Below, piece by piece: positions 5,576 to 47,870 of a DNA stretch of 64,000 nucleotides. Position numbers and translations under genes: made by a program. The stretch is from Hydrogenovibrio sp. (GTDB lineage Bacteria > Pseudomonadota > Gammaproteobacteria > Thiomicrospirales > Thiomicrospiraceae). The stretch spans positions 1-64,000 of the forward strand of contig WFMZ01000058.1 in NCBI GenBank assembly GCA_015484555.1. The letters run 5' to 3'. The notes beneath the pieces were generated by a model that saw only the letters and a list, made by a program, of their open reading frames with translations, did no database searches and was not told the DNA's origin. The first letter of the stretch is position 1; each line of letters opens with the position of its first letter.

Positions 5576-5583
5576 GGAAGTCG

Positions 5584-6489
5584 TTACCTTATCATTTTTA
5601 ATAAAATACTATTTTTTTTGGGTTGGACAATCGGCAGGGTAAAGTCATTTCCCCACTCTTTCCAAGAAGAGTCATAATTTGACACGTTGTAACCGAGCTC
5701 ACGTAAAGCGAAATAGTTGGTAGAAGAAATTTTACCCACTGCACAATACAACACCACATTTTTGTCTTTAGGGATGTCTTTGTAAATTTCTTTTAGTTCG
5801 TTTAAAGGCTGTAAGCTAGCCGTATCATGTTCTGAATTAATGTTATGTGATGCAGGAATACTGATAGCGGAAGGAATATGTCCAAAGCGCTTGGCTGAAG
5901 AAAGTTTGCCTTCATAGGCTGGTACTGGGCGAGCATCAATGACAACCGAGTTAGGGTTTTGGGTGGCAATTTGAGTCGAAAATTTAGTGGCAATACGTTT
6001 ATGGTTGATAACAGGAACATATTGGCTAGAGTTTACTTTAGGGCTATCTAACCCTAAAGGGCGGTTATTTTGAATCCAGCTATCAAACCCTGAATTTAAC
6101 ACTTTTACTTGCTTTAGGCCATAAACTTCTAAGGTCCAAAACAGTCGAGCAGAATCAACCAAGGTACCATCATCATAAATGACAACGGGCGTATTGATAT
6201 CAATCCCTAAATCACGCAAAATAACTTGAATACGACCGGGTTTAGTAATCTTGCCGCTACCTTGTGTTTCGAAGGTCCAGCTGACAGGGAAGTTTAGCGC
6301 ATTTTTAATATGGCCTTGTGCATATAAACTAGGAGAGCGGGCATCTAAAATAGTCACCTTATCAATGTTGGCGACCAATTCAGTTGGCTGCATACGTAAC
6401 TGGCTTTCCGCATAGGCAGTTTGCGCTAAGGTGCTTAAAAATAGGCAACAAGCTATCAGTATAGGGGATGGCGGTTTCATGGGTAGCAT
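5584..6489 (-). CDS. Periplasmic sulfurtransferase with two rhodanese domains
   Basis: Signal peptide; 'VTILDARSPSLYAQGHIKNALNFP' and 'VVLYCAVGKISSTNYFALRELGY'. Confidence 0.87.
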   Translation of the reverse strand: MLPMKPPSPILIACCLFLSTLAQTAYAESQLRMQPTELVANIDKVTILDARSPSLYAQGHIKNALNFPVSWTFETQGSGKITKPGRIQVILRDLGIDINTPVVIYDDGTLVDSARLFWTLEVYGLKQVKVLNSGFDSWIQNNRPLGLDSPKVNSSQYVPVINHKRIATKFSTQIATQNPNSVVIDARPVPAYEGKLSSAKRFGHIPSAISIPASHNINSEHDTASLQPLNELKEIYKDIPKDKNVVLYCAVGKISSTNYFALRELGYNVSNYDSSWKEWGNDFTLPIVQPKKNSILLKMIR

Positions 6490-6628
6490 TCTCCGTTATA
6501 TTACTAATGCGAATGTTTAATGTGATATGGTAATATCTTTAGCGCGCAATTTTCTGTAGTTTGTTATTCTATTACGAAAATAGTATCAAATAAGGTTATT
6601 TAGTGCTAATTGAACAAAAGGAGAAGGG

Positions 6629-7903
6629 ATGCGAGGGTTAAAATATTTATTGAGTAGAAGGTTATTTGTTTTCATGGCTTTATCGCTAGTCACTATTTCG
6701 GCTAATGCGGCACAAAACACATTGGAAACAGGTATTGCTTATCAGTTATTTGAAGCAAAGCAACCCGTTGCCAAGATACTCTGGTTTCCTTCCGAACAAG
6801 GGGTGTTACCTGAAGAAGAAGCGGTAGCAACATCCTTGTCAAAAAAAGGCGTTGATGTCATCATTCCCAATTTATTCGACCAGTATTTCTTGCCGAATGT
6901 TCCCAGTAGCTTGTTTAAAGTACCGAGCAAAGACTGGGTAGATTTAATTCATGCAGCGCAAAATTTTCACCCTCAGTTGCCCCTGTTTATCGTGACCTCT
7001 AATTTAGCCTCCGCACAAGTTGTTAAAGCGTTGGTATCGGTGCAACAGTCAGAAATATCCAATGTGGGTTTAATTTTAGTCAATCCAAATTTATATACCA
7101 AAACTCCTGAACTAGGTGAGAAGGCAAATTATTGGCCTGAAACCGCACAATTAAATTTACCCGTCTATATTGTACAAGCCGAGCTTTCTCCTTGGCGTTG
7201 GCAGTTAGCTAATTTACAAAAAACGCTTATGACGGGTGGTTCAGATGTGTTTTTGCAGCTACAAGAGAATGTAAGAGACCGTTATTATTTTCGTCCAGAT
7301 GCACTTGCTATTGAAAAACAAGCAGCCAAACAGCTACCTCAAGAATTATTGGTTGCCATGCAGCGCTTAGCACCTTATATGCTCGAAAAAAGAGCCTCGG
7401 CTCTTCCTGTACAGGTAGCTCAAAAAAATAGCTTATTAGAGCAACCTAAGAAAAAGTCAGAGAATAGCATTCAAACTTATCAGGGTAACCAGCACCTTCC
7501 ATTGCGCTTGCTCGGTTTGAATGGTAAAAAATATGACATTAAACAGTACAAAGGCAAGGTTGTCTTATTAAACTTCTGGGCAAGTTGGTGTCCGCCTTGT
7601 GTTCACGAAATGCCTTCCATGGCACGGCTAAAAACTAAAATGAAAGGCGAGCCTTTTGAAATATTAGCGGTCAATTTGGCAGAAGGCAAGCCTGCTATTA
7701 AAGCTTTTACCCAAGCACATCCAGTTAACTTTCCTATTTTGTTAGACCCAAAAGGGTCAGCCGTTCAGGCATGGAAGGTGTTTGCCTACCCCAGCACCTA
7801 TATTCTAGATAAAAAAGGTCAAATTCGGTATGCCCTATTTGGCGGGTTTGAATGGGATTCTCCCGAAGCCTTGCAAAAAATACAGGCGTTATTGAATGAA
7901 TAG
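6629..7903 (+). CDS. Fusion: DUF3530/alpha-beta-hydrolase-like N-terminus plus TlpA-type thioredoxin C-terminus
   Basis: 'VVLLNFWASWCPPCVHEMPSMARL' in the C-terminal half; N-terminal half with 'IVTSNLASAQVVKAL...LILVNPNLY'. Confidence 0.78.
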   Translation: MRGLKYLLSRRLFVFMALSLVTISANAAQNTLETGIAYQLFEAKQPVAKILWFPSEQGVLPEEEAVATSLSKKGVDVIIPNLFDQYFLPNVPSSLFKVPSKDWVDLIHAAQNFHPQLPLFIVTSNLASAQVVKALVSVQQSEISNVGLILVNPNLYTKTPELGEKANYWPETAQLNLPVYIVQAELSPWRWQLANLQKTLMTGGSDVFLQLQENVRDRYYFRPDALAIEKQAAKQLPQELLVAMQRLAPYMLEKRASALPVQVAQKNSLLEQPKKKSENSIQTYQGNQHLPLRLLGLNGKKYDIKQYKGKVVLLNFWASWCPPCVHEMPSMARLKTKMKGEPFEILAVNLAEGKPAIKAFTQAHPVNFPILLDPKGSAVQAWKVFAYPSTYILDKKGQIRYALFGGFEWDSPEALQKIQALLNE

Positions 7904-23959: not shown

Positions 23960-26900
23960 CTAAGCAATTCTAATTTTATTCCATACTGCATATAACGCGG
24001 GTAAAAAGAGTACGGTCAGTAAGGTACCAACGCCTATCCCACCAATAAACACATAGGCCATAGGTCCCCAAAAAGTTGAATGGGTAAGAGGAATAAATGC
24101 CAACATAGCGGCAAGGGCCGTTAATAAAACGGGGCGCGCTCTCCGTATGGTGGCATCAATAACCGCTTCAGATTGTGAATAGCCTTGTTTTAAATTATCT
24201 TGAATCTGTCCAGTCAGGATAAGGGTATTACGCATTAGAATACCCGCTAATCCTAATAGTCCTAAGTTGGCCACAAAACCAAATGGCTGATTAAACAACA
24301 CTAAGGCGAGTACGGCACCAATCAAACCAAGCGGTGCGGTAATCAATACCATAAATAGGGTACTAAAGGATTTGACTAAGAGCATGATCAATAAGGTCAT
24401 CACTAAGATCATTAAGGGGACAAGTACCTTAATGGAAGCTTGCGCTTTGGCGGATTCTTCTACTGAGCCGCCTACATCAATACGATACCCTAAGGGTAAA
24501 TTGTCAATAATGGACTGCATCTGTTTTTGTATAATCTTTGTAGCCACAGGTGGTTGGATTCCTGGAATAATTTCGGTATTGACAGATAAATAAAGCTCCC
24601 TGTTTCGACGTTCTAGCAGAGGGTCTTCATACTGTATTTTAATGTTGCCTAGCTGCTCTAGGGGTAGTGTTGAGCCCTTAGCCGTTTTAATCATTAAGCT
24701 GCCAAGTTCTGAAACTTCTATGCGCTCGGTTTTATTCGCACGAATCATTACATTAACGGTTCTGATATTTTCGCCGACCTGAGCGGCAGTAATGCCTTGT
24801 AGCTTAGCTTGTAATTGTTGAGCAACCTCTTGGCTGGTTAACCCTAATTGCGCTAAACGGGCTTTATTCATATCCAAATATAAAGTGGGGACGCGTTCAC
24901 CCCATTCGAGATGTGGATCAACAGTAAAGCTTTGTTTGGCAACCAATAATCTAAGTTCTTCGGCAATGGTTCGTAGTTTTGTAGGATCGGGTCCCACCAC
25001 TCGAAAACTGACCGGCCAAGTAACGGGAGGTCCAAATAAAAGTGGATGGACTCTGACTCTTGCTTCGGGGAATTTACCTTCATCGACTAATTTTCGTAAT
25101 TTAGCTTGTAGTGCTTCACGCGGCTCTTTTCCTTGTGTTACCACCACTATTTGGGCAAAAGCAGGGTTGGTAAGCTCGGGGTTTAGCGCCAAGAAAAAAC
25201 GGGGTGCACCACGACCTATATAAGAAGATAAGGACTTCACTTCATCATACTGGCTAATAACGGCTTCTACTTTTTTAGTGACTTCATCGGTGACATTAAT
25301 CCCCGTCCCTTCTGGCAAAGAGATATCTACCATCAATTCTGGTCTGTCTGAGCTTGGAAAGAATTGCTGGACAACCAGTTTATCCATGCCGACTACGGAA
25401 AGGATGAAAATGAGTACGGTTAGTAATACCACTATAAATTTTCGGCGAACACAAAAGGTGATTAGGCGTCGTAATAGTCGGTAAAAACGAGTATCGTAAG
25501 GGTCTTTTTTATGAGGGAGTTGCTTGAATTTTTCTGGTAAGAGCTTCACGCCTAAATAAGGTGTAAAGTAAACCGAGACAATCCAAGAGGCCGTTAGTGA
25601 AATAGATAATACCCAAAATATATTGCCTGCATACTCGCCGACTCTTGACTGAGCCAAGCCAATAGGTAAAAAACCCGCAACGGTTACTAGGGTACCGACT
25701 AGCATAGGGGCGGCCGTTACGGTCCAGGAGTAGGCGGCTGCTTTTGTCTTCTCCATGCCTTCTTCCATCTTTACCAACATCATTTCAATAGAAATAATAG
25801 CATCGTCCACCAACAGCCCTAAAGAAATAATCAAGGCGCCTAGAGTAATTCGGTCAAAATTAAACCCGCTAAGAAACATAAACATAAACGTCATGGCTAA
25901 TGTTAAAGGGACCGCTAGTGCGACAATTAAGCCTGCTCGAATACCCAGTGCAATTAAGCTGACAATTAACACGACCAGTAATGCGGTCATAAACTTTAAT
26001 TGAAAGGTGCTAACGGCTTCATGAATAGCATTAGCTTGATTGGTTAATTTTTCTACTTTAACACCCAGTGGGAGTTGTTTATCGTATTGTTTTTCAAATG
26101 ATTTTAGACTTTTTTCTAGCTGTAACCCATCTGTTTTGGCGGCCATGACGACACCCAGTAAAACGGTCTCTTGGCCTTTGTTTCTAATTAGGTACGAGGG
26201 CGGAGATTCATAACCACGTGATACTTTAGCGATATCTTGAATCAAAATTTGTTGACCACCAACCACTAGTGGTAACTGCTTAATTTGTTCAATGGATCTT
26301 TTTTGAGGGTTTAGTCCCTGACCTGTCCGGACATATAATCTGGGGCCATTCGTATCAATAAATCCTGCCGCAGTGACGGCTAGTTGCGCATTAATCGCTT
26401 GGGTAAGTGATGCTAAGCTTAAGCTAAGCTGGGCGGCACGATCTTCATCAATATCAATAAAAATTCTTTCAGCACGCTCACCAATCAAGTCAACTTTTTT
26501 AACCCCCTTGACACGGCGCAGTGCAATTTGCATTTTGTCGGCTTCTTGTACCAGTTTTGCTTGGGGCCAGTTCTTGGCGGTAAAGCTGTAAAGGGTAAAA
26601 TAAACATCCTTAAAGTCATCGTTAAAAAATGGGCCTTGCACACCAATAGGTAAATGAATAGCTTCATCTCCTAAGCGTTTACGAATTTGGTAATAGAGTT
26701 CTGTGGAGATACCAGGAGGGGTATCATTTACAAAATTAATTAGCATATCCACACGACCAGGACGTGATTTGGTGATGACTTTGTCAAAGTATTGAATTTT
26801 TTCGAGTTGTTTTTCAAGTGGATTGGCAACTTGGTTTTGCATTTGTAAGGCTGTCGCACCAGGCCAGACGGCTGAAACTACCATGGTATTCACACTAAAA

Positions 26901-27025
26901 GAGGGGTCTTCTGCTCTTCCCATGTGTAAAAAGGCATAGATACCTGCAACGGTAATCATTAAAATAAAATATAGGGTTAGTGACCGCTCTTTTACCGCAT
27001 AGGCAGAAACATTGAACCGATTCAT
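23960..27025 (-). CDS. RND efflux transporter permease subunit
   Basis: 1021 aa, 'GLLVDDAIISIEMMLVKMEEG', 'GLLGLAGILMRNTLILTGQI'. Confidence 0.92.
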   Translation of the reverse strand: MNRFNVSAYAVKERSLTLYFILMITVAGIYAFLHMGRAEDPSFSVNTMVVSAVWPGATALQMQNQVANPLEKQLEKIQYFDKVITKSRPGRVDMLINFVNDTPPGISTELYYQIRKRLGDEAIHLPIGVQGPFFNDDFKDVYFTLYSFTAKNWPQAKLVQEADKMQIALRRVKGVKKVDLIGERAERIFIDIDEDRAAQLSLSLASLTQAINAQLAVTAAGFIDTNGPRLYVRTGQGLNPQKRSIEQIKQLPLVVGGQQILIQDIAKVSRGYESPPSYLIRNKGQETVLLGVVMAAKTDGLQLEKSLKSFEKQYDKQLPLGVKVEKLTNQANAIHEAVSTFQLKFMTALLVVLIVSLIALGIRAGLIVALAVPLTLAMTFMFMFLSGFNFDRITLGALIISLGLLVDDAIISIEMMLVKMEEGMEKTKAAAYSWTVTAAPMLVGTLVTVAGFLPIGLAQSRVGEYAGNIFWVLSISLTASWIVSVYFTPYLGVKLLPEKFKQLPHKKDPYDTRFYRLLRRLITFCVRRKFIVVLLTVLIFILSVVGMDKLVVQQFFPSSDRPELMVDISLPEGTGINVTDEVTKKVEAVISQYDEVKSLSSYIGRGAPRFFLALNPELTNPAFAQIVVVTQGKEPREALQAKLRKLVDEGKFPEARVRVHPLLFGPPVTWPVSFRVVGPDPTKLRTIAEELRLLVAKQSFTVDPHLEWGERVPTLYLDMNKARLAQLGLTSQEVAQQLQAKLQGITAAQVGENIRTVNVMIRANKTERIEVSELGSLMIKTAKGSTLPLEQLGNIKIQYEDPLLERRNRELYLSVNTEIIPGIQPPVATKIIQKQMQSIIDNLPLGYRIDVGGSVEESAKAQASIKVLVPLMILVMTLLIMLLVKSFSTLFMVLITAPLGLIGAVLALVLFNQPFGFVANLGLLGLAGILMRNTLILTGQIQDNLKQGYSQSEAVIDATIRRARPVLLTALAAMLAFIPLTHSTFWGPMAYVFIGGIGVGTLLTVLFLPALYAVWNKIRIA

Positions 27026-34551: not shown

Positions 34552-35937
34552 ATGCAAACACTCGCACAACTAGAATCTGGCGCCTTAAAAGGCATTACCA
34601 AACTGACCTTATCTGAAGGGCTGAGCCTCTTTCCAGAAGCTATTTTTGACTTGGCAGATAGCTTAGAAGTATTAGATTTGTCGGGCAATCAATTAAGCAG
34701 CTTGCCAGATAACTTGGCCGATTTAACACAGCTTAAAATTCTGTTTTGTTCAAATAACCTATTTACCAGTGTGCCGACTTGTTTGGCAGCTTGTCCAAAA
34801 CTGGAAATGATTGGCTTTAGAAATAACCAAATTACCAACCTTCCTGAAAACGCTTTGCCGTTGCAGACCCGTTGGTTAATTTTGACGGATAATGCCTTAA
34901 CCACCTTACCAGACTCTTTTGGTCAGTTAAGTCAGTTGCGTAAATGCGCCTTGGCGGGTAATCAGTTGGCGAGCCTGCCAGCCAGTATGAAAGGCTGTCA
35001 ACGTTTAGAGTTGCTAAGAATATCCGCAAACCGTTTAACGGCCTTGCCAGATGAACTGCTCACCTTGCCAAAGCTAACATGGTTGGCTTTTTCGGGGAAT
35101 GATTTTTGCCAATCTAAAGATTGCGCGGATGCAAACGAGCAACCTGAAAAAGTACATTTAGATGACCTGGAAATGCACGAGCCGTTAGGCGAAGGTGCAT
35201 CGGGTTTGATTTATCGTGCAAAATGGGCGAAAGAATATGCTGAATTACAGCGTTCAGAAGGGCATAGCTTGCCTAAAAATATTGCCGTTAAAATATTTAA
35301 AGGCGCTGTCACCAGCGATGGCTATCCAAAAGATGAGCTGGCGATTGGGCAACAAATTGGCCATCATATTAATTTGGTCGAAATGTTAGCTGAAGTATCA
35401 GACTGCCAGGTAAATCATTCAAGTCAGTCAAGCGAAATGGTGGCTGACACCGAAGTGCATGGCATGGTGATGAGCTTAATTCCTAAAAAGTTCTTTAACC
35501 TAGGTAATCCACCTAGTTTACAAACCTGTACGCGAGATACCTTTAGCGATGATAGCAGTTTGCCTGCAACCGGTATTTTGGAGGTATTAATTCAAACGGC
35601 AAACGCCATGGCGCACTTACACAGTCATCATGTTAGTCATGGCGATTTGTATGCACATAATATTCTAATTAATAAGAAACATAGCGTTTTACTGGGCGAC
35701 TTTGGGGCGGCCTCTAACTTTGGCGTATTGCCTGAAGCACAGCAAGCTTTAGTGAAAACCTTGGAAGTCCGTGCCTTTGCTAACTTAATAGAAGACCTAT
35801 TGACGATTGTTAAAGTCAGTCCAATGGGCACTTACTTACAAGAAATCTTGGTCGAATTTGTCGATTATTGCCGAACAGAAGCGGGTTTAAGTTTTGCTGA
35901 AGTCGCGCAAGAATTGATTAATTTACGCGAGCTTTAA
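34552..35937 (+). CDS. Leucine-rich-repeat protein fused to a Ser/Thr protein kinase
   Basis: Repeats 'LEVLDLSGNQLSSLPDNLADLTQLKILFCSNN'; kinase 'LGEGASGLIYRAKW', 'NIAVKIFKG', 'HGDLYAHNILINKKHSVLLGDFGAAS'. Confidence 0.85.
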   Translation: MQTLAQLESGALKGITKLTLSEGLSLFPEAIFDLADSLEVLDLSGNQLSSLPDNLADLTQLKILFCSNNLFTSVPTCLAACPKLEMIGFRNNQITNLPENALPLQTRWLILTDNALTTLPDSFGQLSQLRKCALAGNQLASLPASMKGCQRLELLRISANRLTALPDELLTLPKLTWLAFSGNDFCQSKDCADANEQPEKVHLDDLEMHEPLGEGASGLIYRAKWAKEYAELQRSEGHSLPKNIAVKIFKGAVTSDGYPKDELAIGQQIGHHINLVEMLAEVSDCQVNHSSQSSEMVADTEVHGMVMSLIPKKFFNLGNPPSLQTCTRDTFSDDSSLPATGILEVLIQTANAMAHLHSHHVSHGDLYAHNILINKKHSVLLGDFGAASNFGVLPEAQQALVKTLEVRAFANLIEDLLTIVKVSPMGTYLQEILVEFVDYCRTEAGLSFAEVAQELINLREL

Positions 35938-36859: not shown

Positions 36860-37702
36860 TTATCCATGGTCATCATTATGTTCTAGTGCTGCCCAAAAAT
36901 GGCATAAATGTTGGCTGGTTTCTTCTGGGTGAGAGAAGAACAAAATATGGCTACCGCCTGCAATCACTTCAATACGCGCATTAGGCTGTAAAGCAGGCAA
37001 GTCGGTACGAATATCGAAAGGAATAAGCGGGTCTTTTTCACCCAATAACCAAAGGGTTGGTTGGGTTAGTTCTGATAAAATACTTCGGTTATCCATGTCT
37101 CTTAATAGGTGTAATCCTTGCGATAAGGCACCTAGGCTAGGAACCTTGGCTTGTTTCATGTGGCTGGTTAAGGCTTTCATTAAGGGACGGGAATTATCAC
37201 AACCTTGTAATTGCAAACGCCAAAACTTTTTCAGCACCATACCAACTTCATTGCTAATAGCATGAATAAAGTTGCCAATAATTTCAGGGTTAACTGCATA
37301 TTGCCAGTGATCATATTGGGTAAAACGGGGCGTGGAAGCCAAGCATACTAAGCTTTCTACTTGCTGTGGGCACTGTTTAGCAAGCTGTTGTGCCAATAAA
37401 CCACCTAGTGACCAGCCTAGTAAATGTGTTTTAGCCGGCAAGGTTTCTGCTAAGGCTTTCAGCCAGTCGGCTTGTAGGTTATCAGTTTCTTCAATCGCAG
37501 GGCTGTCACCAAACCCGGGTAAATCAATTAAAGTAATTGAATGGAAAGGGACTAAATAGGTGGTTGCCCAATCTTGCCAAATCAAACTTTCGGCCGCCCA
37601 ACCATGAATAAGCGTTACATGGCTAACCTGCTCAGGTTGCGGGTGGCTTGTGGCAATATCAATACGATTAAGGGGGTAAGTAAGAGGTTCAGCTAATTTC
37701 AT
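36860..37702 (-). CDS. bioH: Pimeloyl-ACP methyl ester esterase BioH
   Basis: 'HLLGWSLGGLLAQQLA' nucleophile elbow, 'SLVCLASTPRF', adjacent to bioC. Confidence 0.87.
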   Translation of the reverse strand: MKLAEPLTYPLNRIDIATSHPQPEQVSHVTLIHGWAAESLIWQDWATTYLVPFHSITLIDLPGFGDSPAIEETDNLQADWLKALAETLPAKTHLLGWSLGGLLAQQLAKQCPQQVESLVCLASTPRFTQYDHWQYAVNPEIIGNFIHAISNEVGMVLKKFWRLQLQGCDNSRPLMKALTSHMKQAKVPSLGALSQGLHLLRDMDNRSILSELTQPTLWLLGEKDPLIPFDIRTDLPALQPNARIEVIAGGSHILFFSHPEETSQHLCHFWAALEHNDDHG

Positions 37703-37770
37703 GCGGGTATTTTACAGCGGTTGTTTTGATTTGATGTGTTTTTTATAGATAAAACGATATTTGAAGCTTA

Positions 37771-37787
37771 AAAATCGCCAGGGGTGG
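37771..37787 (+). repeat. 17-mer, intergenic between bioH start and dynamin-like gene stop
   Basis: Exact AAAATCGCCAGGGGTGG. Confidence 0.97.
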
Positions 37788-37843
37788 TGTCTAAAACAGT
37801 CATTAAATGGGTATTTAATGACTGTTTTACACGCTTTTGAGGG

Positions 37844-39250
37844 TTATATAGTTTCGTTTTTTTGACCGGAAGGGTCTGCAAACTGGTCGGTTAGTTTTTG
37901 AATCGATTTTTTCGCATGTTGCTTCACCTCTTGCACTTTTTTAAGGGTGCGTTTATTCCAGCCTCTAGGGTTTGCATGGAACATACCACGCCAGAAACGG
38001 TTGTTAAATAGCAAGGCATTCGCAATAGCAGGCTCTTTTTTAACTAAACGATTAGCATCCCATTTGGCAATTTTATTGCGTAAATAGTAATGAATGGTAA
38101 AGATGATAACTAATGCAAAGGCTCCTAATATTCCTCCATTCATTAAGGACTGACTTGCCCAGTCTTGAATATCTTGAGTATTTGCAGGGTAGGTGAAGCC
38201 CATCCAAATAGCGGCAGCAGCAAGCGACCCTAAAATAGTAAAGTCGGCCAACATGACTTTGGTTCGCCAAGATTTAATGGCTTTATTTAGCTTAGGAATT
38301 TGCTCTTTTTCTAAATTTTCCGCAATATATTGCGCGGTGTCAGCAATACGATAAGCTCGTTCGATACTGACTTTTTGCATACGATCTGTAATTTCTGATA
38401 AATCAATATTCTTTTTGCGCTGAAATCTTTCTGCTAAAGCAGGATCAGAAATATTATTGGCTAGCTGTTCATTGTAGATAGCGTAAAAGTTGCCTCCCAT
38501 TAGGCCTTGTTGTGATAAGGCTCTTTGCCATGAAGCAATGACTTCTTCTGGGTTGTCTTCTTGTGCGGCGGTATCAATTTGATTCAAAATAAATAAGATT
38601 TTATGCGAGTCATTTCGGCCAATATTGGTTTTAACCAAGTGTTCTAATGTATCGCGCATGGCTCCTGGCTCTGGGTGGCGGGCATCAAAAAAGACTAAAA
38701 CCAAGTCTGACATATCAATAATGTGGTTAGTGATCTTTAAGGTAGAGTTCCTTTGGGAGTCGGCATCAAACCCAGGAGAATCAATTAAAATTTTACCTTT
38801 TAATATATCTTCAGGAACGGTTTTTAATTGAAGATAGGTGTCTATCTTATTGCCTTCTCCTGTTTCCACTTTATTGATTTCTTCAGAAATACCAAAAAAG
38901 GGAAAACGAGGGTCGGCATTTAAAGCAAGGCCAGGAAGGGTATTAACTTCCTCACCACTCCCATAACAAAGAACGGTAAATTTATCATCAATAGCTTGGT
39001 TACCAGAAGATTGTACCGTGCGGCCTAGGTATTGGTTTATAAAGGAAGATTTACCTGCTGAGAATGTACCCAGTATGGAAATAAGAGGCCACCATGAGAT
39101 GTCAGAGGCATAGGTTGCTTCTTGATTTAGCAATCCTGTTTTGTAGCCAAGGGCATCTAGCGCTTTGTAGGTTGTAATAATATCTATTAAAACGGGATTT
39201 TCTTCGGCTAAGTGTTGTTCTATTTTTAAGTATCTTTCGCTGGGTTTCAT
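37844..39250 (-). CDS. Dynamin-like GTPase with C-terminal transmembrane segments
   Basis: 'ILGTFSAGKSSFINQYLG' P-loop, 'ILIDSPGFDAD' G3, 'FILNQIDTA' G4-like. Confidence 0.82.
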   Translation of the reverse strand: MKPSERYLKIEQHLAEENPVLIDIITTYKALDALGYKTGLLNQEATYASDISWWPLISILGTFSAGKSSFINQYLGRTVQSSGNQAIDDKFTVLCYGSGEEVNTLPGLALNADPRFPFFGISEEINKVETGEGNKIDTYLQLKTVPEDILKGKILIDSPGFDADSQRNSTLKITNHIIDMSDLVLVFFDARHPEPGAMRDTLEHLVKTNIGRNDSHKILFILNQIDTAAQEDNPEEVIASWQRALSQQGLMGGNFYAIYNEQLANNISDPALAERFQRKKNIDLSEITDRMQKVSIERAYRIADTAQYIAENLEKEQIPKLNKAIKSWRTKVMLADFTILGSLAAAAIWMGFTYPANTQDIQDWASQSLMNGGILGAFALVIIFTIHYYLRNKIAKWDANRLVKKEPAIANALLFNNRFWRGMFHANPRGWNKRTLKKVQEVKQHAKKSIQKLTDQFADPSGQKNETI

Positions 39251-39822
39251 GGTGTTTGCCCTTTGTTATTTCGGGGTTGTATTTGTATGGTTGGTCTAGG
39301 GTAGTTTGAATTTTTATATCGGTTATTATTCGAACTGCTTGGCATCATTGACCAGGGCATAAAGCTGTTAAAAGACCCCATCGGTTTCGATATGTTGTCA
39401 TTAAGTTCTGATATGTGCGAGTTCATTTGCCCTGTAGTTTGTGCCATGTAATAAACAGATTGGTGTATACCGATTAAAGTTTGATTCATATTTTGAATAG
39501 AGTAATTCATTTCTTCAATATGTTTCATTTCAATATTAATACTGGTTAATTGTTTATCTAAATTTTTCTGCATGGTGACAACTGCTTCGGTCATTAACAC
39601 CATATTGTCAGTAATTTTAGTCATATCTTTGGTTAAATTTACAATTAAATAGAAGCCATAACCCGCTAATAAAATAAAGGCAAGCATCATGGGGTAAATT
39701 ACTTTTTCCCAACGTCGGATGCCTTTGGTCATGACATCGCTTAGTAAGGAGATTTTATCTTGCATGACCGATTCTGCTTCATGAAGCTCTTGATTAATTT
39801 GTGCTGGTTCTGGCGGGTTCAC
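39247..39822 (-). CDS. Single-TM coiled-coil protein of unknown function
   Basis: TM 'MMLAFILLAGYGFYLIVNL' then heptad-like Met/Asn-rich region; overlaps dynamin gene by 4 bp. Confidence 0.65.
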   Translation of the reverse strand: MNPPEPAQINQELHEAESVMQDKISLLSDVMTKGIRRWEKVIYPMMLAFILLAGYGFYLIVNLTKDMTKITDNMVLMTEAVVTMQKNLDKQLTSINIEMKHIEEMNYSIQNMNQTLIGIHQSVYYMAQTTGQMNSHISELNDNISKPMGSFNSFMPWSMMPSSSNNNRYKNSNYPRPTIQIQPRNNKGQTP

Positions 39823-39875
39823 TATAAAGGCTCTCTTTTAACTAAAATTTTAAGGTGATTAAATAGGGGTAAAAA

Positions 39876-40880
39876 TTACTGTGCTGGTGGGCGGTACCCT
39901 TGTGGCGCTTGCTGTTGCATGTCGTTATAGTAAAAACGTAGTCTTTGGTAATAATCTTGCATTTGCTTATTGTATTCATTTAAACGGGCTGCCTGTTGGT
40001 TTAAATAACTTTCTTTATTGGCAAATTGATCTTCTATTTGCGCGCGCCAATAAGCATTTTGTGCTTCTAATTGCTGTTTGATTTTTGCTTGATAATTTTT
40101 CAACATTTCTTCTCGTAACTTGGCTTCAGCTTGCCATTTTTTTTGTCTAGCATCGGCTTGCTGTTGCTGGTTTTGTTGGTCTGCTAGCAGGACCTTTTGC
40201 TGTTGAGATTGTTGCATGCTTAATGCCTGTTGCGCATTGTTTAAAATAGTTTGCGAAGCGTTACTAGAAATTGAACTAAGGTGGTTTCCTAAGCTAATCG
40301 CATCATATACTCGGTTAGTTTTAATCAGTATTTGGCCAGCTTCTATCCAGGCTATATTGGCTAGATCAAGCTTGCCAGACTGCGCTAATACATTGCCAAA
40401 TTCTAGCAATACTTCTGCTGTAGGGGTTTTTGCAACGAGAGAATAGTAAATTTCTTCGGCCTTAGGTAGGTCATGGGCATAAAAAGCGGATCTGGCGGCA
40501 TTAATAGCTTCTGGAAAAGAGTTGAAGTTGGATAGTACTGCGACGACATCGATAGCGGCATTATTTTGGGGATTAGCTGTGCTTGTTTCGTTTGCGGTTT
40601 TTGCTTTTACTTTTGCTTTTGTTGTTTGAGGCTTTTGATTGGCAGGGCTATCTTGATGAATAGTGGCCTTATTTAAACTGCTTACCTGTTTTTTTTCAAC
40701 GGCGTTTTGCGTGACGTTGGACGGCTTTGAAAACTCTTTATGGGTGGGCACTGCCTCCGTGTCGATATAAATACCATGATCTTTTTTAATATCATCTGAA
40801 TAGACCAAATAGAGCGTTACCGCAGTAATGAGTAACAGAATAAAAAAACCGTTATTTAAAAGGGCTCGTAAAATTGACAT
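39876..40880 (-). CDS. Membrane-anchored TPR-like protein with Gln-rich coiled coil
   Basis: N-terminal TM; helical repeats 'AEEIYYSLVAKTPTAEVLLEFGNVLAQSGKLDLANIAWIEAG'; Gln-rich C-terminus. Confidence 0.6.
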   Translation of the reverse strand: MSILRALLNNGFFILLLITAVTLYLVYSDDIKKDHGIYIDTEAVPTHKEFSKPSNVTQNAVEKKQVSSLNKATIHQDSPANQKPQTTKAKVKAKTANETSTANPQNNAAIDVVAVLSNFNSFPEAINAARSAFYAHDLPKAEEIYYSLVAKTPTAEVLLEFGNVLAQSGKLDLANIAWIEAGQILIKTNRVYDAISLGNHLSSISSNASQTILNNAQQALSMQQSQQQKVLLADQQNQQQQADARQKKWQAEAKLREEMLKNYQAKIKQQLEAQNAYWRAQIEDQFANKESYLNQQAARLNEYNKQMQDYYQRLRFYYNDMQQQAPQGYRPPAQ

Positions 40881-40923
40881 GTGGCATTCCTTGTTTCTAA
40901 TTGTTTTAAGTGCTTTTTAACCG

Positions 40924-41547
40924 TTAAACAGTAAAAATATATTGTGCTATTTTTATAAATTCTTTGCTAGCTTTTCCGTTAGGCTCCATTTCGAAAACGC
41001 CTAAGCCTTCGCTAAAAGACCGACGATAAGCGGTTCTATTATATAAGCGAATAGGGATACGTTTTACAATAGGTAGAAAGTCTAGTGCTTCTTCTGTTTC
41101 TTGTGTTTCGATTACCTTGGGGTGGGTGTCAGCTCTATTGACGATACCCAGCACCTTTGGCAGGTCTTTTCTCTCAGCTTTAATTAATTTAATAAATCGC
41201 TGGGTTGACCAAATATCTGCCTGGCTAGGGGCGACAGGTATAATGATTTGGTGACAAATTTGGATGGCTTTTTTCATGGCCAATTGGTTGCTCATACTGA
41301 CATCAATAATAATTTCGTCAGCTGAATCAGAGTTAACACAATCAATTGTGCTTTCATCTTTTGTGTTAGGTAAGCTAGGTTGGTAATTTTCTTCTGTTCG
41401 CACTTCAACCACATCGGAAAAAGTTTGTTGCGGATCAAAATCATACAAGCTAATGCTTTTATTTTGATGGGCTAGCCAGACAGCTAAATTAAAGGCGAAG
41501 GTACTTTTACCCGTACCGCCTTTCATGTTTCCAATTACCGTAATCAT
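40924..41547 (-). CDS. ParA/MinD-like ATPase
   Basis: 'GNMKGGTGKSTFAFNLAVWLA' deviant Walker A; 'EIIIDVSMSNQLAMKKAIQICHQIIIPVAPSQADIWSTQRF'. Confidence 0.88.
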   Translation of the reverse strand: MITVIGNMKGGTGKSTFAFNLAVWLAHQNKSISLYDFDPQQTFSDVVEVRTEENYQPSLPNTKDESTIDCVNSDSADEIIIDVSMSNQLAMKKAIQICHQIIIPVAPSQADIWSTQRFIKLIKAERKDLPKVLGIVNRADTHPKVIETQETEEALDFLPIVKRIPIRLYNRTAYRRSFSEGLGVFEMEPNGKASKEFIKIAQYIFTV

Positions 41548-41602
41548 TTAAGTTTTGCCTTTTTTAAAATATTTAACTTATATTAAATGGCTATGCTCAA
41601 CC

Positions 41603-41636
41603 TTTGAATAAACTAAGTAAACATAGTTTATTCAAA
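41603..41636. repeat. 13-bp perfect inverted repeat (8-nt spacer) between ParA-like gene and Gly/Asn-rich gene
   Basis: TTTGAATAAACTA agtaaaca TAGTTTATTCAAA. Confidence 0.8.
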
Positions 41637-41675
41637 ATAGTTAGGCTAACACTAGCTTTGAAGTGAAGTTACTCG

Positions 41676-42380
41676 TTATTTTTTGATTGGAGCAGGTGCA
41701 ACGGGCGCCATAGCTTGTGGTGGTCTCATCATTTGCTGTGACGGACGCATCATCTGTTGCGGTTGTCTCATCATTTGTTGAGGAGGGCGCATCATCTGTT
41801 GTGGTTGGTTATAAGCAGGTTGCCCTTGGTAACCATAGCCTTGTCCTCGATTATAATAATTGCCATTATTATATCCGTTATATCCGTTATACCCGTTGCC
41901 GTAGTAGTTTCCATTGCCATTGTAGTTGCTGTTTCCTCTAAACTGCTGCTGGCCGTTATACTTTTGGTTGCCATTATACTTCTGGTTGTAATTTTGCTTG
42001 CCTTGTCCCTGGCCTTGAAAATTAGATTCAGCATTAAAGCCCATGCTAAATTTCCCTTTACCAGAGCCCTTTGCATTTCCTTGGCCATTTCCTTGACCAT
42101 TTCCATTGTAGTTACCATTTTGGTTGCCGTTATAGTTGCCCTGGCCGTTTCCTGCGCCATTGCCCATACCGTTTCCTTGGCCATTATTATAGCCATTACC
42201 ATTATTGTTTCCATTTCCGCCCCAAGGTCCATTAAACCAGTTGGCCGATGCCGACTGTGCGCCAAATATAGCGGCTGAAACAATAGATGCTAATGCAATT
42301 TTCTTAATATTAATCATTTTCATTTTCAATTTCCTTTGATATTTTGTGCACGGTTTTTTGAGGTGGGAGGGTGTACACAT
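41676..42380 (-). CDS. Secreted Gly/Asn/Tyr/Gln-rich low-complexity protein (sulfur-globule-protein-like composition)
   Basis: Signal peptide 'IKKIALASIVSAAIFGAQSASANWFNGPWGGNGNN'; NGNGQGNGQGN repeats; C-terminal 'QMMRPPQQMMRQPQ' repeats. An internal start (MKMINIKKIALAS) is more likely the true N-terminus. Confidence 0.65.
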   Translation of the reverse strand: MCTPSHLKKPCTKYQRKLKMKMINIKKIALASIVSAAIFGAQSASANWFNGPWGGNGNNNGNGYNNGQGNGMGNGAGNGQGNYNGNQNGNYNGNGQGNGQGNAKGSGKGKFSMGFNAESNFQGQGQGKQNYNQKYNGNQKYNGQQQFRGNSNYNGNGNYYGNGYNGYNGYNNGNYYNRGQGYGYQGQPAYNQPQQMMRPPQQMMRQPQQMMRPSQQMMRPPQAMAPVAPAPIKK

Positions 42381-42460
42381 AGCCTCTTCACCGTTTTAAA
42401 TTTTATTTTTCTAGCGATATAGCTTGGATAAATAGTTAGTTAAGTTACAAGTCATTTTTG

Positions 42461-43030
42461 TTAATTACCCATAAAAGGCATGTTTGACCAGGGTGAATTG
42501 TTGCCGTTCCCCATAAAAGGCATATTGTTCATGTTGGGCATGTCAAAATCCATATTGGGCATAGAGGGCATATTCATGTTATTCATATTTGGCCAGCTAT
42601 TATTTTGATAGCCTGGATAGCTTTGAGGGTAGTAGCCATTTTGTCCGTTAAAAAAGTTATTTATTGGACGAGTAAAGTTATTCATAGGCCCTGTATAGTT
42701 ACCATTGTTATAACTGTTAAAAGGTGCTTGTCTCATTACCGGAGGCTGTACCATGTTCATTTGAGGCATGTAATATGGCATAGGGTTAGGCATGTAATAA
42801 GTGGGTGTGCCATACCCATTTTGATACCCTTGGTTACCATAATAGGGAGCTTGTGAGTAATTTCCCCGTGGCGTTTGTTGTGGCGCGCGCTCTATCCACT
42901 GAGGGTTCTGTGCAGTAGCTTGGTAAGCCTGTTCATTTTGTGGCCAGTTTTGTGCACTGGCTTGTGATAGGCTACCTGCTAAGGCTAAACCTACTAATAG
43001 CTTTGTTGTATTCATTCGTGTTTTATTCAT
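42461..43030 (-). CDS. Secreted Asn/Met/Pro/Tyr-rich low-complexity protein
   Basis: Signal peptide 'KLLVGLALAGSLSQASAQNWP'; 'NMNNMNMPSMPNMDFDMPNMNNMPFMGN' repeats; overlaps RND gene by 8 bp. Confidence 0.65.
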   Translation of the reverse strand: MNKTRMNTTKLLVGLALAGSLSQASAQNWPQNEQAYQATAQNPQWIERAPQQTPRGNYSQAPYYGNQGYQNGYGTPTYYMPNPMPYYMPQMNMVQPPVMRQAPFNSYNNGNYTGPMNNFTRPINNFFNGQNGYYPQSYPGYQNNSWPNMNNMNMPSMPNMDFDMPNMNNMPFMGNGNNSPWSNMPFMGN

Positions 43031-46000
43031 CGTCTAAGTCCTTTAGTTGAATGCCTCTTTTGCGCTTTGACGCAGGCTTTGTCGTTTTATTTAAATTTTG
43101 AGTTTTTGTTTTAGAAGGCGTTACCTTTTTGGCCGAAACTTTTTTAGGAATCTTAACGTCTGCTTTTTTTACCTTTTTAGGAGTGGGGTCATTGTCGGCC
43201 TCTACTGTAGTTACTTTTTTTGTGACTTTTGACTGTTGTTTATTATCTTTTTTGGGCTGTTCGGCATAGATAATAGGAGGATTCTCTAAGCTAGAAGTAG
43301 ATTCAATTATTTTGCCCTCTAGTGCTCCAGGTTGCTTGCTAGACTTGTGAACTGGAGAGGTTTTATCAGTTTTTTCTGTCATGTCACAGCTTGGTATGGC
43401 TCGGCCATTACTATCTGTCCCTGCAGGGCAAAAAGCAGATCTAGCTGTGACACAACCCAAGGGTATGACAACCAAGGTGAGTAGCGTGGCAATTAAAATA
43501 CCAAAGATAAGGGAGATAGCCATCCCTTGGAAAATAGGGTCAAATAGGATGACGCTTGAACCTAATATGAGTGCTACAGCTGTAATCATGATGGGACGTG
43601 TTCGCGCTTTGCAGGCAAAAATAACGGCATCTGTAATGGGTACACCCTTGGCAATTTCTTGGCGAGAGAAGTCAACGAGTAGGATGGAATTCCGCACGAT
43701 AATACCGGCGAGCGCGATAAATCCAATCATTGAGGTCGCTGTAAACTCTGCGCCCATTAGCCAATGTCCGGGTACAATACCTATAATGGTTAATGGAATA
43801 GGCGCCATTACAATTAACGGCAGCATAAAGTTCTTAAATTCCCAAACAACGAGCATGTAAATAATCAGCAGGGCAACCCCAAAGGCAATGCCCATGTCTC
43901 GGAAAGTTTGATAGGTTACAGTCCATTCTCCCGCCCAGAGAAATTTATTTTCTGTTAGCCCACTAGGTGTGAATACATAATTACCTGATAAACCTTCTAA
44001 TGAGGGGTCTTGATTGGCTAGTTTTTGTATGTCAATCATGCCATAAATAGGCGCTCCTAAACGCCCTTGGCCAGTTCCGGTAACGTACTGAACGGGCTTT
44101 AGGTCTTTATGATATAGTGAGGGTTGTTGTTGTTCAATAATGAAACGCCCTAGCTCATTTAAAGGGACTAAATTACCCTTGTTGCTTTGTACGGGAATTT
44201 GTCCCATTCTTGCAAATTCAGCTCTAATAGCTTCGGGTGCTTGAATAACAATAAAGGTAGGGCTACCACGCTTGAAGCCTTGCTTCACATCACCCAGTTG
44301 ATAACCTCCCATTGCCATTTGAACAGTGGCATTAATGGTGGCTACGTTTATGCCACTTTCCATTGCCTTTTGCTTATCAATAACAAAGCGCCAGGCGTTA
44401 TGAGGTTGAGTAATAGAATTATCTACATCCACCACCATAGGGGCTTTTTCAAATATTGTCGTTAGCTTCTCTGTCATTTCGTTACGTTCAGTTGCATTAG
44501 GGCCATAAACTTCCGCCACAATAGACTGCATGACGGGTGGTCCTGGCGGCATTTCAACAACTTGAACTTTAGCACCCGCTTCGGTAGCTTGCTGGTGTAA
44601 AATAGCTCGAATATTTTCGGCTATTTCATGGCTTGTACGCTCGCGATCACCCTTGTCTTTTAGATGGACTTGAATATCTGCTTGCCAAGGTTGGTTGCGT
44701 AAATAGTAATGTCTAACTAGACCGTTAAAGTCGAAAGGCGCAGCGGTGCCAACATAGCTTTCCATGGTCATTATTTCCGGCACTTTTGCTTGCAGTGTTT
44801 TAACCAGTTTGTGGGTTAAGTTAGCCGTAACAGGTAGGTCGGTTCCTTCAGGGAAGTTCACTACAACACTGAATTCAGGTTTATTATCATAAGGCAATAA
44901 TTTAACAGGTACCCTGTCGCTATATATCAAATAGGCGGCAATGAAAAAAGCCAGAACGATACTAATTAAAAACCCCCAGCCTTTAGCTTTCTCAATTAAT
45001 AAACTACCTAATAGACTGCGAAAGAATCGACCTAGTTTTTCTGATTGCTCATGTTCTTTCTCTTCGGCGGCTTTTAATATTGTCATTTTGGGTTTTAAGC
45101 GTTGTGCTAACCAAGGTGTAAAGGCAAAGGCTGCAAACAAAGAAATAACCATTGCAACGGAACCTAATGCCGGAATAGGTGCCATGTAAGGGCCCATCAT
45201 TCCACTAACAAACGCCATAGGCATTAAGGCAGCGATGACGGCTAAGGTTGCAATAATGGTTGGATTGCCTACTTCTGATACGGCAGAAACTGTAATGCTT
45301 TCATCTGTTGACCCTTCTAATAGCCACCGTCGATAGATGTTTTCTAACACCACAACAGCATCATCCACTAAAATTCCAATCGAGAATATAAGTGCAAACA
45401 AGCTTACCCTGTCAATGGTTAGCCCCATCATCCAGGCGGCAAATACGGTGGATAAAATAACGATAGGAATTACGATAGAAACTACGGCAGCGGCACGCCA
45501 TCCTAAGAATAACCAAATTAAAATAGTGACAGAGCCCGTGGCAATAAATAATTTAAAAATGAGTTCATTTACTTTGTCATTTGCAGACTTACCATAGTTT
45601 CGGCTTACTGAAACCAGCACATCACTAGGGATAATAAGCCCTTTCAGCTTATCCATAGCGGCTAAAGCATCGTTAGCCACACTCACCCCATTCGCACCGG
45701 CCTGTTTGGCAATGGCAATGGTGACTGCTGTTTGCCCATTTGTCATATCTTCTGGTATCGAGCTGGAAGAGCCCGTATAAAAAGTCACTAAATTGGTTGT
45801 ATCCTTAGCTTTTTCAGATACTTTTGCAACATCTCGTACAAAAACGGGAGCGCCATCTTTAACACCGACAATTAGGTCGCTGACGTCTTGAGCATTTTCT
45901 AAATATTCACCTGTATAAACGGTGTATTGTTGTTGCCAAGCCGCAAAATTACCCGCTGTTGTTTCATGGTTAGCGGCACGAATAACTTTGCCAATTTGGG

Positions 46001-46652
46001 TAAGAGAAATACCATATCCAGATAGTTTTTCTGGGCTAATGTCGATTACAACTTCGGAAGGTTCTCCGCCAACTACATAACCTTGAGAGGTGTGCGGAAT
46101 AGAAGCAAGGTTTTGTAAAACATCATATCCAAGTAAACGCAGTTGTGTACTGTCAAGCTTAGAGGAGGAGAGGGTAAAGGTGACAATTGGTACGTCGTCA
46201 GCTCCCTTGGGTTTAATAATGGGTTGCGACACGCCTTGAGGCATAACGTCCATATTAGAGGCAATTTTGTTGTAGACATTAACCAAAGATCTTTCCATGT
46301 TTTCGCCAACAATAAACTGCACTGTTACCATCGCCTGACCATGCTGAGAAATAGAATAGACATGTTCAACGCCTTTAATTTCTTTTAGTAAACGCTCTAA
46401 AGGTTCCGAAACTAAAGCCTCTACTTGCTTGTTAGAAGCCCCTGAATACTGCACCATAATATCAACCATAGGGACTGAAATTTGTGGGTCTTCTTGTCTT
46501 GGCGTGAACATAATGCCCATAATGCCAATAACAATACCGACTAATAAAAATAAGGGGGTAATAGGGGAATTTATATAAGATCTAGCTATGTTTCCAGCTA
46601 TATCACGTTTACTTTTGACTGAATTATTGGGCTGGTTTGCTTGGTTACTCAT
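43023..46652 (-). CDS. RND transporter permease with extended Lys-rich C-terminal cytoplasmic tail
   Basis: 'GILVDDAVVVLENIYRRW', 'GFIALAGIIVRNSILLVDF'; ~130-residue tail 'KKVKKADVKIPKKVSAKKVTPSKTKTQNLNKTTKPASKRKRGIQLKDLDDE'. Confidence 0.9.
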   Translation of the reverse strand: MSNQANQPNNSVKSKRDIAGNIARSYINSPITPLFLLVGIVIGIMGIMFTPRQEDPQISVPMVDIMVQYSGASNKQVEALVSEPLERLLKEIKGVEHVYSISQHGQAMVTVQFIVGENMERSLVNVYNKIASNMDVMPQGVSQPIIKPKGADDVPIVTFTLSSSKLDSTQLRLLGYDVLQNLASIPHTSQGYVVGGEPSEVVIDISPEKLSGYGISLTQIGKVIRAANHETTAGNFAAWQQQYTVYTGEYLENAQDVSDLIVGVKDGAPVFVRDVAKVSEKAKDTTNLVTFYTGSSSSIPEDMTNGQTAVTIAIAKQAGANGVSVANDALAAMDKLKGLIIPSDVLVSVSRNYGKSANDKVNELIFKLFIATGSVTILIWLFLGWRAAAVVSIVIPIVILSTVFAAWMMGLTIDRVSLFALIFSIGILVDDAVVVLENIYRRWLLEGSTDESITVSAVSEVGNPTIIATLAVIAALMPMAFVSGMMGPYMAPIPALGSVAMVISLFAAFAFTPWLAQRLKPKMTILKAAEEKEHEQSEKLGRFFRSLLGSLLIEKAKGWGFLISIVLAFFIAAYLIYSDRVPVKLLPYDNKPEFSVVVNFPEGTDLPVTANLTHKLVKTLQAKVPEIMTMESYVGTAAPFDFNGLVRHYYLRNQPWQADIQVHLKDKGDRERTSHEIAENIRAILHQQATEAGAKVQVVEMPPGPPVMQSIVAEVYGPNATERNEMTEKLTTIFEKAPMVVDVDNSITQPHNAWRFVIDKQKAMESGINVATINATVQMAMGGYQLGDVKQGFKRGSPTFIVIQAPEAIRAEFARMGQIPVQSNKGNLVPLNELGRFIIEQQQPSLYHKDLKPVQYVTGTGQGRLGAPIYGMIDIQKLANQDPSLEGLSGNYVFTPSGLTENKFLWAGEWTVTYQTFRDMGIAFGVALLIIYMLVVWEFKNFMLPLIVMAPIPLTIIGIVPGHWLMGAEFTATSMIGFIALAGIIVRNSILLVDFSRQEIAKGVPITDAVIFACKARTRPIMITAVALILGSSVILFDPIFQGMAISLIFGILIATLLTLVVIPLGCVTARSAFCPAGTDSNGRAIPSCDMTEKTDKTSPVHKSSKQPGALEGKIIESTSSLENPPIIYAEQPKKDNKQQSKVTKKVTTVEADNDPTPKKVKKADVKIPKKVSAKKVTPSKTKTQNLNKTTKPASKRKRGIQLKDLDDE

Positions 46653-46700
46653 GGTTTTGTTCCGTATTATTCATCAGGTTCTGGATAAAGATCAGTTTGT

Positions 46701-47870
46701 TTAATCTTTAGATTCCAAATTTGAAGGTTGTAGCTTTCCATCGGCATATAACCAGCCAGATACAATGTTGTACGGTGGGTTGACGATAATAGTTTCTCCT
46801 GCACGAACACCTGATAAAACTATGTCGTAACCAGAATGAAGTCCTTTTCCTAAACGAACAATTTTCATTTCAACTAGATTCGTCTTCTTATTCACGACAA
46901 AAAGACTCGGTAAGCTTCCGCGTTTTACAATAGCGCTTTTAGGTATGACGGGGAAGCTTTGACCCTGAGAGGAGGCATTAAGAACAGACACTTCAGCATA
47001 CATGCCTGGAGCCGCCGCGACGGAAGTGGGGAGATCAAATTTAACTATTACTGTGTGTTGCTGCGCATTTGCAACAGGGAATATTTGTGAAACACGTACG
47101 CTAATAGGCATTTTGTTGGCTAAACGAGCTTGAAAAATAGCTCCTTTTTGAATACCTAACATAAGCATGACCGGTACATTCACTTCTAAACTAAGATGGT
47201 CATTTTCAGCGAATATCATTAAAGGTTGGCCAGGTTGGACGATGTCCCCCGCTTCAACTAGTTTTTTAACAATAATTCCTGGAAAAGGGGCGACAGATTT
47301 CGTATCTAATAATAGGACGTCAATTTCATTTATTTTAGATTTTAATAATCGCAGCTGAGCTTCAGCTTGCTGTACTTTAGCACGTGCATTTGAAACGTTA
47401 GCTAGGCGATCAATGGATTCATTACCATACCCCATAGAATTAGCAAAAGGTCTGGTAAACATTTGATCCATTAACCCGGGTAAAGCCATGCCTGGCATGC
47501 TTTTTTCGGTTGAGGGACTCCAAATTTCGCGATTGTATTGTGTGATGGAGTTTCTGTAAGCAATGGCAGCTTGTTGCCACTTTGCCATGGCTGCGTTACG
47601 CTGGGTGCGTAAAATGTCATCATCAATAGATATTAATAATGCACCCGCATTGAATTTATCGCCCTCTATGCCAGCAATATAGTTAATTTGCCCAGCTTGT
47701 TGAGCGTTGATTGTTATTTCTTTATGCGGGATAATCGTACCGCCCAATCGAACAAAGCGGTCATAAACTGCTGATTGAACGATCTCGGTCTTAATTTCAT
47801 TTGCGTACGAACTCAATGGCAGTGCGCACAAATTAGCAATCATTAAAAAATAAACATACTTAAGTCTCAT
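46701..47870 (-). CDS. RND/HlyD-type periplasmic adaptor protein
   Basis: 'GDKFNAGALLISIDDDILRTQRNAAMAKWQQA', 'VAPFPGIIVKKLVEAGDIVQPGQPLM'; signal peptide. Confidence 0.85.
   Translation of the reverse strand: MRLKYVYFLMIANLCALPLSSYANEIKTEIVQSAVYDRFVRLGGTIIPHKEITINAQQAGQINYIAGIEGDKFNAGALLISIDDDILRTQRNAAMAKWQQAAIAYRNSITQYNREIWSPSTEKSMPGMALPGLMDQMFTRPFANSMGYGNESIDRLANVSNARAKVQQAEAQLRLLKSKINEIDVLLLDTKSVAPFPGIIVKKLVEAGDIVQPGQPLMIFAENDHLSLEVNVPVMLMLGIQKGAIFQARLANKMPISVRVSQIFPVANAQQHTVIVKFDLPTSVAAAPGMYAEVSVLNASSQGQSFPVIPKSAIVKRGSLPSLFVVNKKTNLVEMKIVRLGKGLHSGYDIVLSGVRAGETIIVNPPYNIVSGWLYADGKLQPSNLESKD

Follow-up and report, generated by a model that had tools for sequence, protein, structure and literature searches.

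Results

A Conserved Envelope Gene Cluster

Eight consecutive minus-strand genes at positions 37844-47870 of the window, the whole 64,000-nucleotide stretch of Hydrogenovibrio sp. DNA that was analyzed, probably form a dedicated cell-envelope machine for the biogenesis and placement of sulfur globules. A first-pass annotation had suggested a spatially organized envelope machine that exports or assembles a low-complexity matrix, for example that of the sulfur-globule envelope. This proposal gains support from synteny, from matches to PF17228 ("Sulphur globule protein") in one slot of the cluster, and from the co-occurrence of ParA with sulfur-globule proteins (SGPs); for its alternative, a metal- or sulfur-binding surface layer, we found no support.

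All eight ORFs were recovered with the boundaries first given to them, including the overlaps at 39247/39250 and 43023/43030, and domain searches agreed with the earlier dynamin-like, ParA-like, RND and adaptor identities. Transcription, on the minus strand throughout, begins with an RND-type periplasmic adaptor of the MFP type (46701-47870; RND_mfp TIGR01730, E = 1.9e-40; HlyD/RND_mfp), whose first position is kept across loci, and continues with an HAE1/AcrB-type RND permease (43023-46652; ACR_tran, 2e-152), whose cluster orthologues are 50-72% identical. There follow secreted protein 2, a low-complexity protein with a Sec-type signal and the motif WPQxExxY...PQW that occupies the same slot in family relatives (42461-43030), and a secreted Gly/Asn-rich, divergent SGP-like protein syntenic with PF17228 proteins (41676-42323), whose most likely start is the ATG at 42323 rather than 42380. 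The last four genes encode a ParA-like ATPase (40924-41547), a membrane protein of a TPR family (39876-40880), a membrane-anchored coiled-coil protein with one TM helix and the family motif RRWExVYP...FxxLAxYGFxLI (39247-39822), and a dynamin-superfamily GTPase (37844-39250). The TPR protein had been described as a Gln-rich membrane protein. It is indeed a membrane protein, anchored at its N terminus by one TM helix (residues 8-26) and Gln-rich in its C-terminal part, and is better placed in a family of TPR membrane proteins, within which it evolves fast, since its syntenic orthologues match TPR models. NCBIfam and PHROGs supplied no specific name for the cluster, and a literature search of full texts, mostly outside subscription journals, returned no description of it.

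Between the SGP-like gene and parA lies a stable 12-bp RNA hairpin (41604-41635, minus strand; fold z -3.57), possibly a differential-expression or processing element that sets the level of coat protein against that of the machinery. Because the hairpin divides these two genes, a single transcript of all eight is not certain. An Rfam search matched solely a tRNA upstream, and promoter and terminator scans gave results no better than shuffles. Elsewhere in the window are a second RND permease gene (23984-27007) and a plus-strand gene (34552-35937) whose product joins leucine-rich repeats to a protein kinase domain of eukaryote-like type. The cluster lies immediately upstream of bioH (36860-37844), and same-genus relatives (L177, L179 and L182) have bioF directly before bioH; thus, either this site has undergone rearrangement or the cluster was acquired there.

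Conservation of Gene Order

The first-pass annotation had proposed neighborhood conservation as a check, with homologues that never co-occur elsewhere as the refuting outcome; co-occurrence was seen widely. The order is kept across many gammaproteobacterial families, in same-family genomes and in two alphaproteobacterial MAGs, and the genes recur as a set in many sulfur oxidizers. The GTPase was present in 13 of the 56 genomes searched (the window's own counted), and neither it nor ParA was found in the eleven other same-genus genomes searched. The neighborhoods of the GTPase matches, together with those in Thiomicrorhabdus sp. Milos-T2, T. marina and two Rhodospirillales MAGs, mostly showed the same order, with a few orphan GTPases. 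In 369 gammaproteobacterial genomes, ParA was found as one copy each in 65, from 32 families, and in ∼30 of 40 sampled ParA loci the adaptor/RND genes and/or the coiled-coil/GTPase genes flanked it in fixed order. An arrangement that recurs this often is far from chance.

Other loci carry additional genes that the window cluster lacks. Many have a DUF302 membrane protein between the TPR and coiled-coil genes, in several a DUF4412-like periplasmic protein precedes ParA, and a conserved ∼131-residue protein (SEWMxxFxxAWNxEPxL...) without a Pfam match is encoded upstream of the adaptor (L122:759-1151, and in L109, L097, L104, L036, L038 and L052). The DUF4412-like and 131-residue proteins would fit a role in lipid or wax trafficking, in which they aid an RND permease that moves lipid and the link to sulfur arises from the needs of globule membranes or coats. 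We consider this quite unlikely for the locus, as both genes are missing from the window cluster.

The RND Permease Tail Tracks ParA

The ParA-like protein has a deviant Walker A motif, KGGTGKST, conserved among 52 aligned homologues, and matches AAA_31/CbiA, phrog_164 (ParA) and ParA_partition (4e-39, below the curated cut-off of that model). That its best family models are partition ParAs, and that bioF and bioH are split at this site relative to relatives, would be expected if it were a partition ATPase that a plasmid or mobile element had left behind on integrating. Such an origin is nevertheless extremely improbable: ParA occurs once per genome in a context conserved over many families, no ParB was seen beside parA, and GC content is not anomalous. 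A plasmid search returned generic RND homologues only, at about 43% identity.

The RND permease ends in a long, Lys-rich, disordered cytoplasmic tail (43026-43400, minus strand) that carries the C-terminal motif KRGIQLK (43041-43061). Similar tails in orthologues comprise about 100-350 extra residues, apparently disordered and usually Lys-rich, and end in (K/R)RGI(R/K/Q)(L/I)K. The strict pattern was found in 33 of 36 ParA-positive genomes and in 1 of 6 ParA-negative genomes (Fisher p = 4e-4, uncorrected), and it was absent from the other RND proteins of the window genome. The three ParA-positive misses have HRGIRLK (G367), RKGIRLK (G164) and a frameshift with the motif in the adjoining frame (G089). 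At locus L091 the RND gene (3851-7541) is frameshifted before the tail, with RRGIKLK in the adjoining frame, from either a sequencing error or a real frameshift.

No ParA was found in six RND-bearing genomes searched for it. T. marina and the two f80 genomes keep the rest of the cluster and lack both ParA and the tail motif. Among the other ParA-less genomes, one with only RND and coiled-coil genes has the degenerate RKSVRIK (G174), one has a lone RND without the motif (G374), and the one that retains the motif (G121) is an 88% complete MAG whose contig ends one gene downstream. Known partners of ParA work by way of basic peptides at their termini (PMC12204374). Because the motif tracks ParA and ParA partners use peptides of this kind, the RND tail is a candidate ParA-docking or -activating peptide. 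The coupling of motif and ParA is seen by comparing genomes; that the tail binds ParA is what we infer from these sequences.

The Gly/Asn-rich Protein Resembles Sulfur-globule Proteins

In many loci, the protein encoded between RND and ParA matches PF17228. Thirteen of 23 aligned cluster proteins matched at E <= 0.01, and two slot proteins scored 56 bits (L114) and 40 bits (L103) against a cut-off of 26.7. The Gly/Asn-rich protein of the window (P0005) had no Pfam match, falling below the PF17228 cut-off, and its genome yielded no PF17228 match even at E 10. Compared with a profile built from the SGPs at the syntenic position in other families, P0005 reached 13.4 bits, whereas the maximum among 500 composition-preserving shuffles was -7.3; its similarity to SGPs is therefore order-dependent and goes beyond composition. 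Secreted protein 2 (P0006), the control, scored within the range of its own shuffles. Judged by this profile comparison and by synteny, the Gly/Asn-rich protein is a divergent counterpart of PF17228 proteins.

ParA and SGPs also occur together across genomes. Among the 369 gammaproteobacterial genomes, 65 had ParA and 55 had PF17228: 49 had both, 16 ParA only, 6 SGP only and 298 neither (Fisher p = 4e-40, with kinship between genomes ignored). SoxB-positive genomes alone gave a table of 46/13/6/85 (p = 4e-20, kinship likewise ignored), and genomes with both proteins came from 25 families. A PF17228 match lay within about 3 kb of parA in 14 genomes, against ∼0.7 expected within 10 kb. Most SGP genes sit away from the cluster and 43 genomes also have SGP genes elsewhere, so that linkage alone is not enough to explain the co-occurrence.

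The RND and adaptor genes could instead encode a conventional efflux pump for drugs or metals, placed beside unrelated genes by chance, as their membership in efflux families would allow. Synteny disfavors this explanation, which is very improbable given an order conserved over many families, the coupling of tail motif and ParA, and the co-occurrence with SGPs.

Wherever members of the SGP family have been studied, they coat globules in the periplasm, and SgpD-mCherry was found on globules (PMC10386293). In Allochromatium vinosum, the gene for the most abundant globule protein, sgpD, adjoins a hydrophobic/amphiphilic exporter gene, and its knockout had no phenotype (PMC10386293). Two other loci (L171:11070-11990 and L172:5551-6498) encode, after RND, a secreted protein with a charged helical stretch and a Pro/Tyr-rich C terminus that resembles the published description of SgpD.

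dsrA was present in 53 of the 65 ParA-positive genomes. A genome search did not find it in the window genome or in the cluster-bearing relatives of the same family, and a strict dependence of the cluster on dsr was rejected because these clusters occur without dsrA. With no dsrA in the genome and an SGP-like protein that scores below the Pfam model, sulfur globules in the window organism are putative only.

An Insertion at the Adaptor Tip and No Outer-membrane Factor in the Cluster

As first reported, no TolC-like gene lies within the window cluster; we noticed no outer-membrane factor in the other loci read. The coiled-coil hairpin of the adaptor bears at its tip a Met-rich, hydrophobic insertion with the motif MPGMxxPxxxDQMF (residues 118-150; 47421-47519, minus strand). 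In the AlphaFold2 model the hairpin is otherwise normal, with arms at residues 85-117 and 151-190, and the tip is predicted at low confidence. The insertion, which is conserved in the alignment, occupies the place of the TolC-docking tip and, on this model, may replace it.

These features bear on the possibility that RND and adaptor work with an unlinked TolC-type channel to secrete sulfur or the low-complexity proteins. At the cell surface this material would template extracellular sulfur, with ParA and the GTPase positioning the exporter. A window lineage without dsrA and the long hairpin kept by the adaptor would suit such export. We nevertheless regard it as unlikely: the clusters read lack an outer-membrane factor, the hydrophobic insertion at the hairpin tip is conserved, the SGP family members that have been studied coat periplasmic globules (PMC10386293), and most ParA-positive genomes have dsrA. 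If the machine instead serves periplasmic globules, as we favor, the absent outer-membrane factor is no puzzle, because SGPs carry Sec-type signals and the globules studied are periplasmic.

The Dynamin-like GTPase

The GTPase matched PF00350 (Dynamin_N; 55.8 bits, 7e-15), its P-loop and DSPG columns are invariant in the alignment, and it carries two C-terminal TM helices. Foldseek searches with its AlphaFold2 model (pLDDT 87.7) placed the fold closest to EHD4 (E = 3e-11) and EHD2, followed by BDLP and mitofusins. The EHD4, BDLP and mitofusin matches had E values of 1e-8 to 1e-11 with TM-scores of only 0.3-0.5 over the whole chain, and identity to the best solved relatives was 12-16%. A defense role was unsupported, PADLOC giving merely a weak LeoA match. 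Orphan homologues, 44-54% identical, occur in Sulfurovum/Campylobacterota MAGs and in Chromatocurvus (L025-L035, L037, L039 and L042), and ParA was not found in the six genomes with an orphan GTPase that were searched; the orphans indicate that the protein also works outside the cluster.

Discussion

Taken together, the cluster suggests the following working model. SGP-like coat proteins, whose signal-like N termini are evident, would be exported to the periplasm by Sec. The adaptor and RND permease may form an envelope complex that loads a hydrophobic component, be it lipid, sulfane sulfur or coat protein, into the periplasmic globule as it grows, or moves it there. From its fold and the conserved linkage, the dynamin/EHD-like GTPase would act with the TPR and coiled-coil proteins in shaping an inner-membrane pocket that holds the globule. 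Nucleoid-bound ParA would bind the basic tail of the RND permease through RGI(R/K/Q)(L/I)K, and the RND complex would thereby connect ParA across the membrane with the globule in the periplasm. By analogy with McdA, which acts via the basic terminus of McdB, this contact could space globule sites and pass them to both daughters. Weighing against the model are the missing PF17228 match and the missing dsrA in the window genome, the eleven same-genus genomes without GTPase and ParA, the orphan GTPases, and the sgpD knockout that had no phenotype. We advance more tentatively, as a serious possibility, the view that sulfur globules are organelles whose assembly and inheritance are active processes, with a conserved multi-gene machine that couples nucleoid ParA across the inner membrane to periplasmic globules via the RND motif tail and an EHD-like GTPase that shapes their pocket.

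Knowledge of sulfur globules goes back well beyond a hundred years. The literature searched describes coat proteins only and names no machinery that would build globules, position them or pass them on, and sulfur goes entirely unmentioned in a 2025 review of how bacterial organelles are positioned (PMC13052382). Because the locus consists of specific genes that can be deleted, and its transporter carries a short peptide that is a candidate for ParA docking, the question can be tested directly; if the model is true, ParA positioning would extend to a periplasmic inclusion.

Each part of the cluster has counterparts in known systems. HAE1 RND tripartite efflux pumps of the AcrAB-TolC type likewise combine an RND permease with an adaptor; the cluster differs from them in having no outer-membrane factor, an insertion at the adaptor tip, and a long Lys-rich permease tail with RGIxLK. 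SgpA-D of A. vinosum (PF17228 and SgpD) are Sec-exported low-complexity coat proteins, as is proposed for the window cluster, and sgpD adjoins an RND-type exporter gene. For ParA, dynamin-like, TPR and coiled-coil partners, however, no link to globules was found in the literature searched, and the SGP-like protein of the window, unlike PF17228 members, falls below the Pfam model. EHD ATPases and the bacterial dynamins BDLP, LeoA and IniA share the dynamin-superfamily fold with the cluster GTPase, which is set apart by its two C-terminal TM helices, an identity of about 15-16% and its linkage to SGP, RND and ParA genes. The McdAB system for carboxysome positioning similarly pairs a ParA-type ATPase with a basic terminal peptide on a cargo-side partner, a peptide that in the window cluster is proposed. 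The partner of McdA is the small soluble McdB, whereas here it would be the C-terminal tail of an integral membrane RND permease, and the cargo would be periplasmic.
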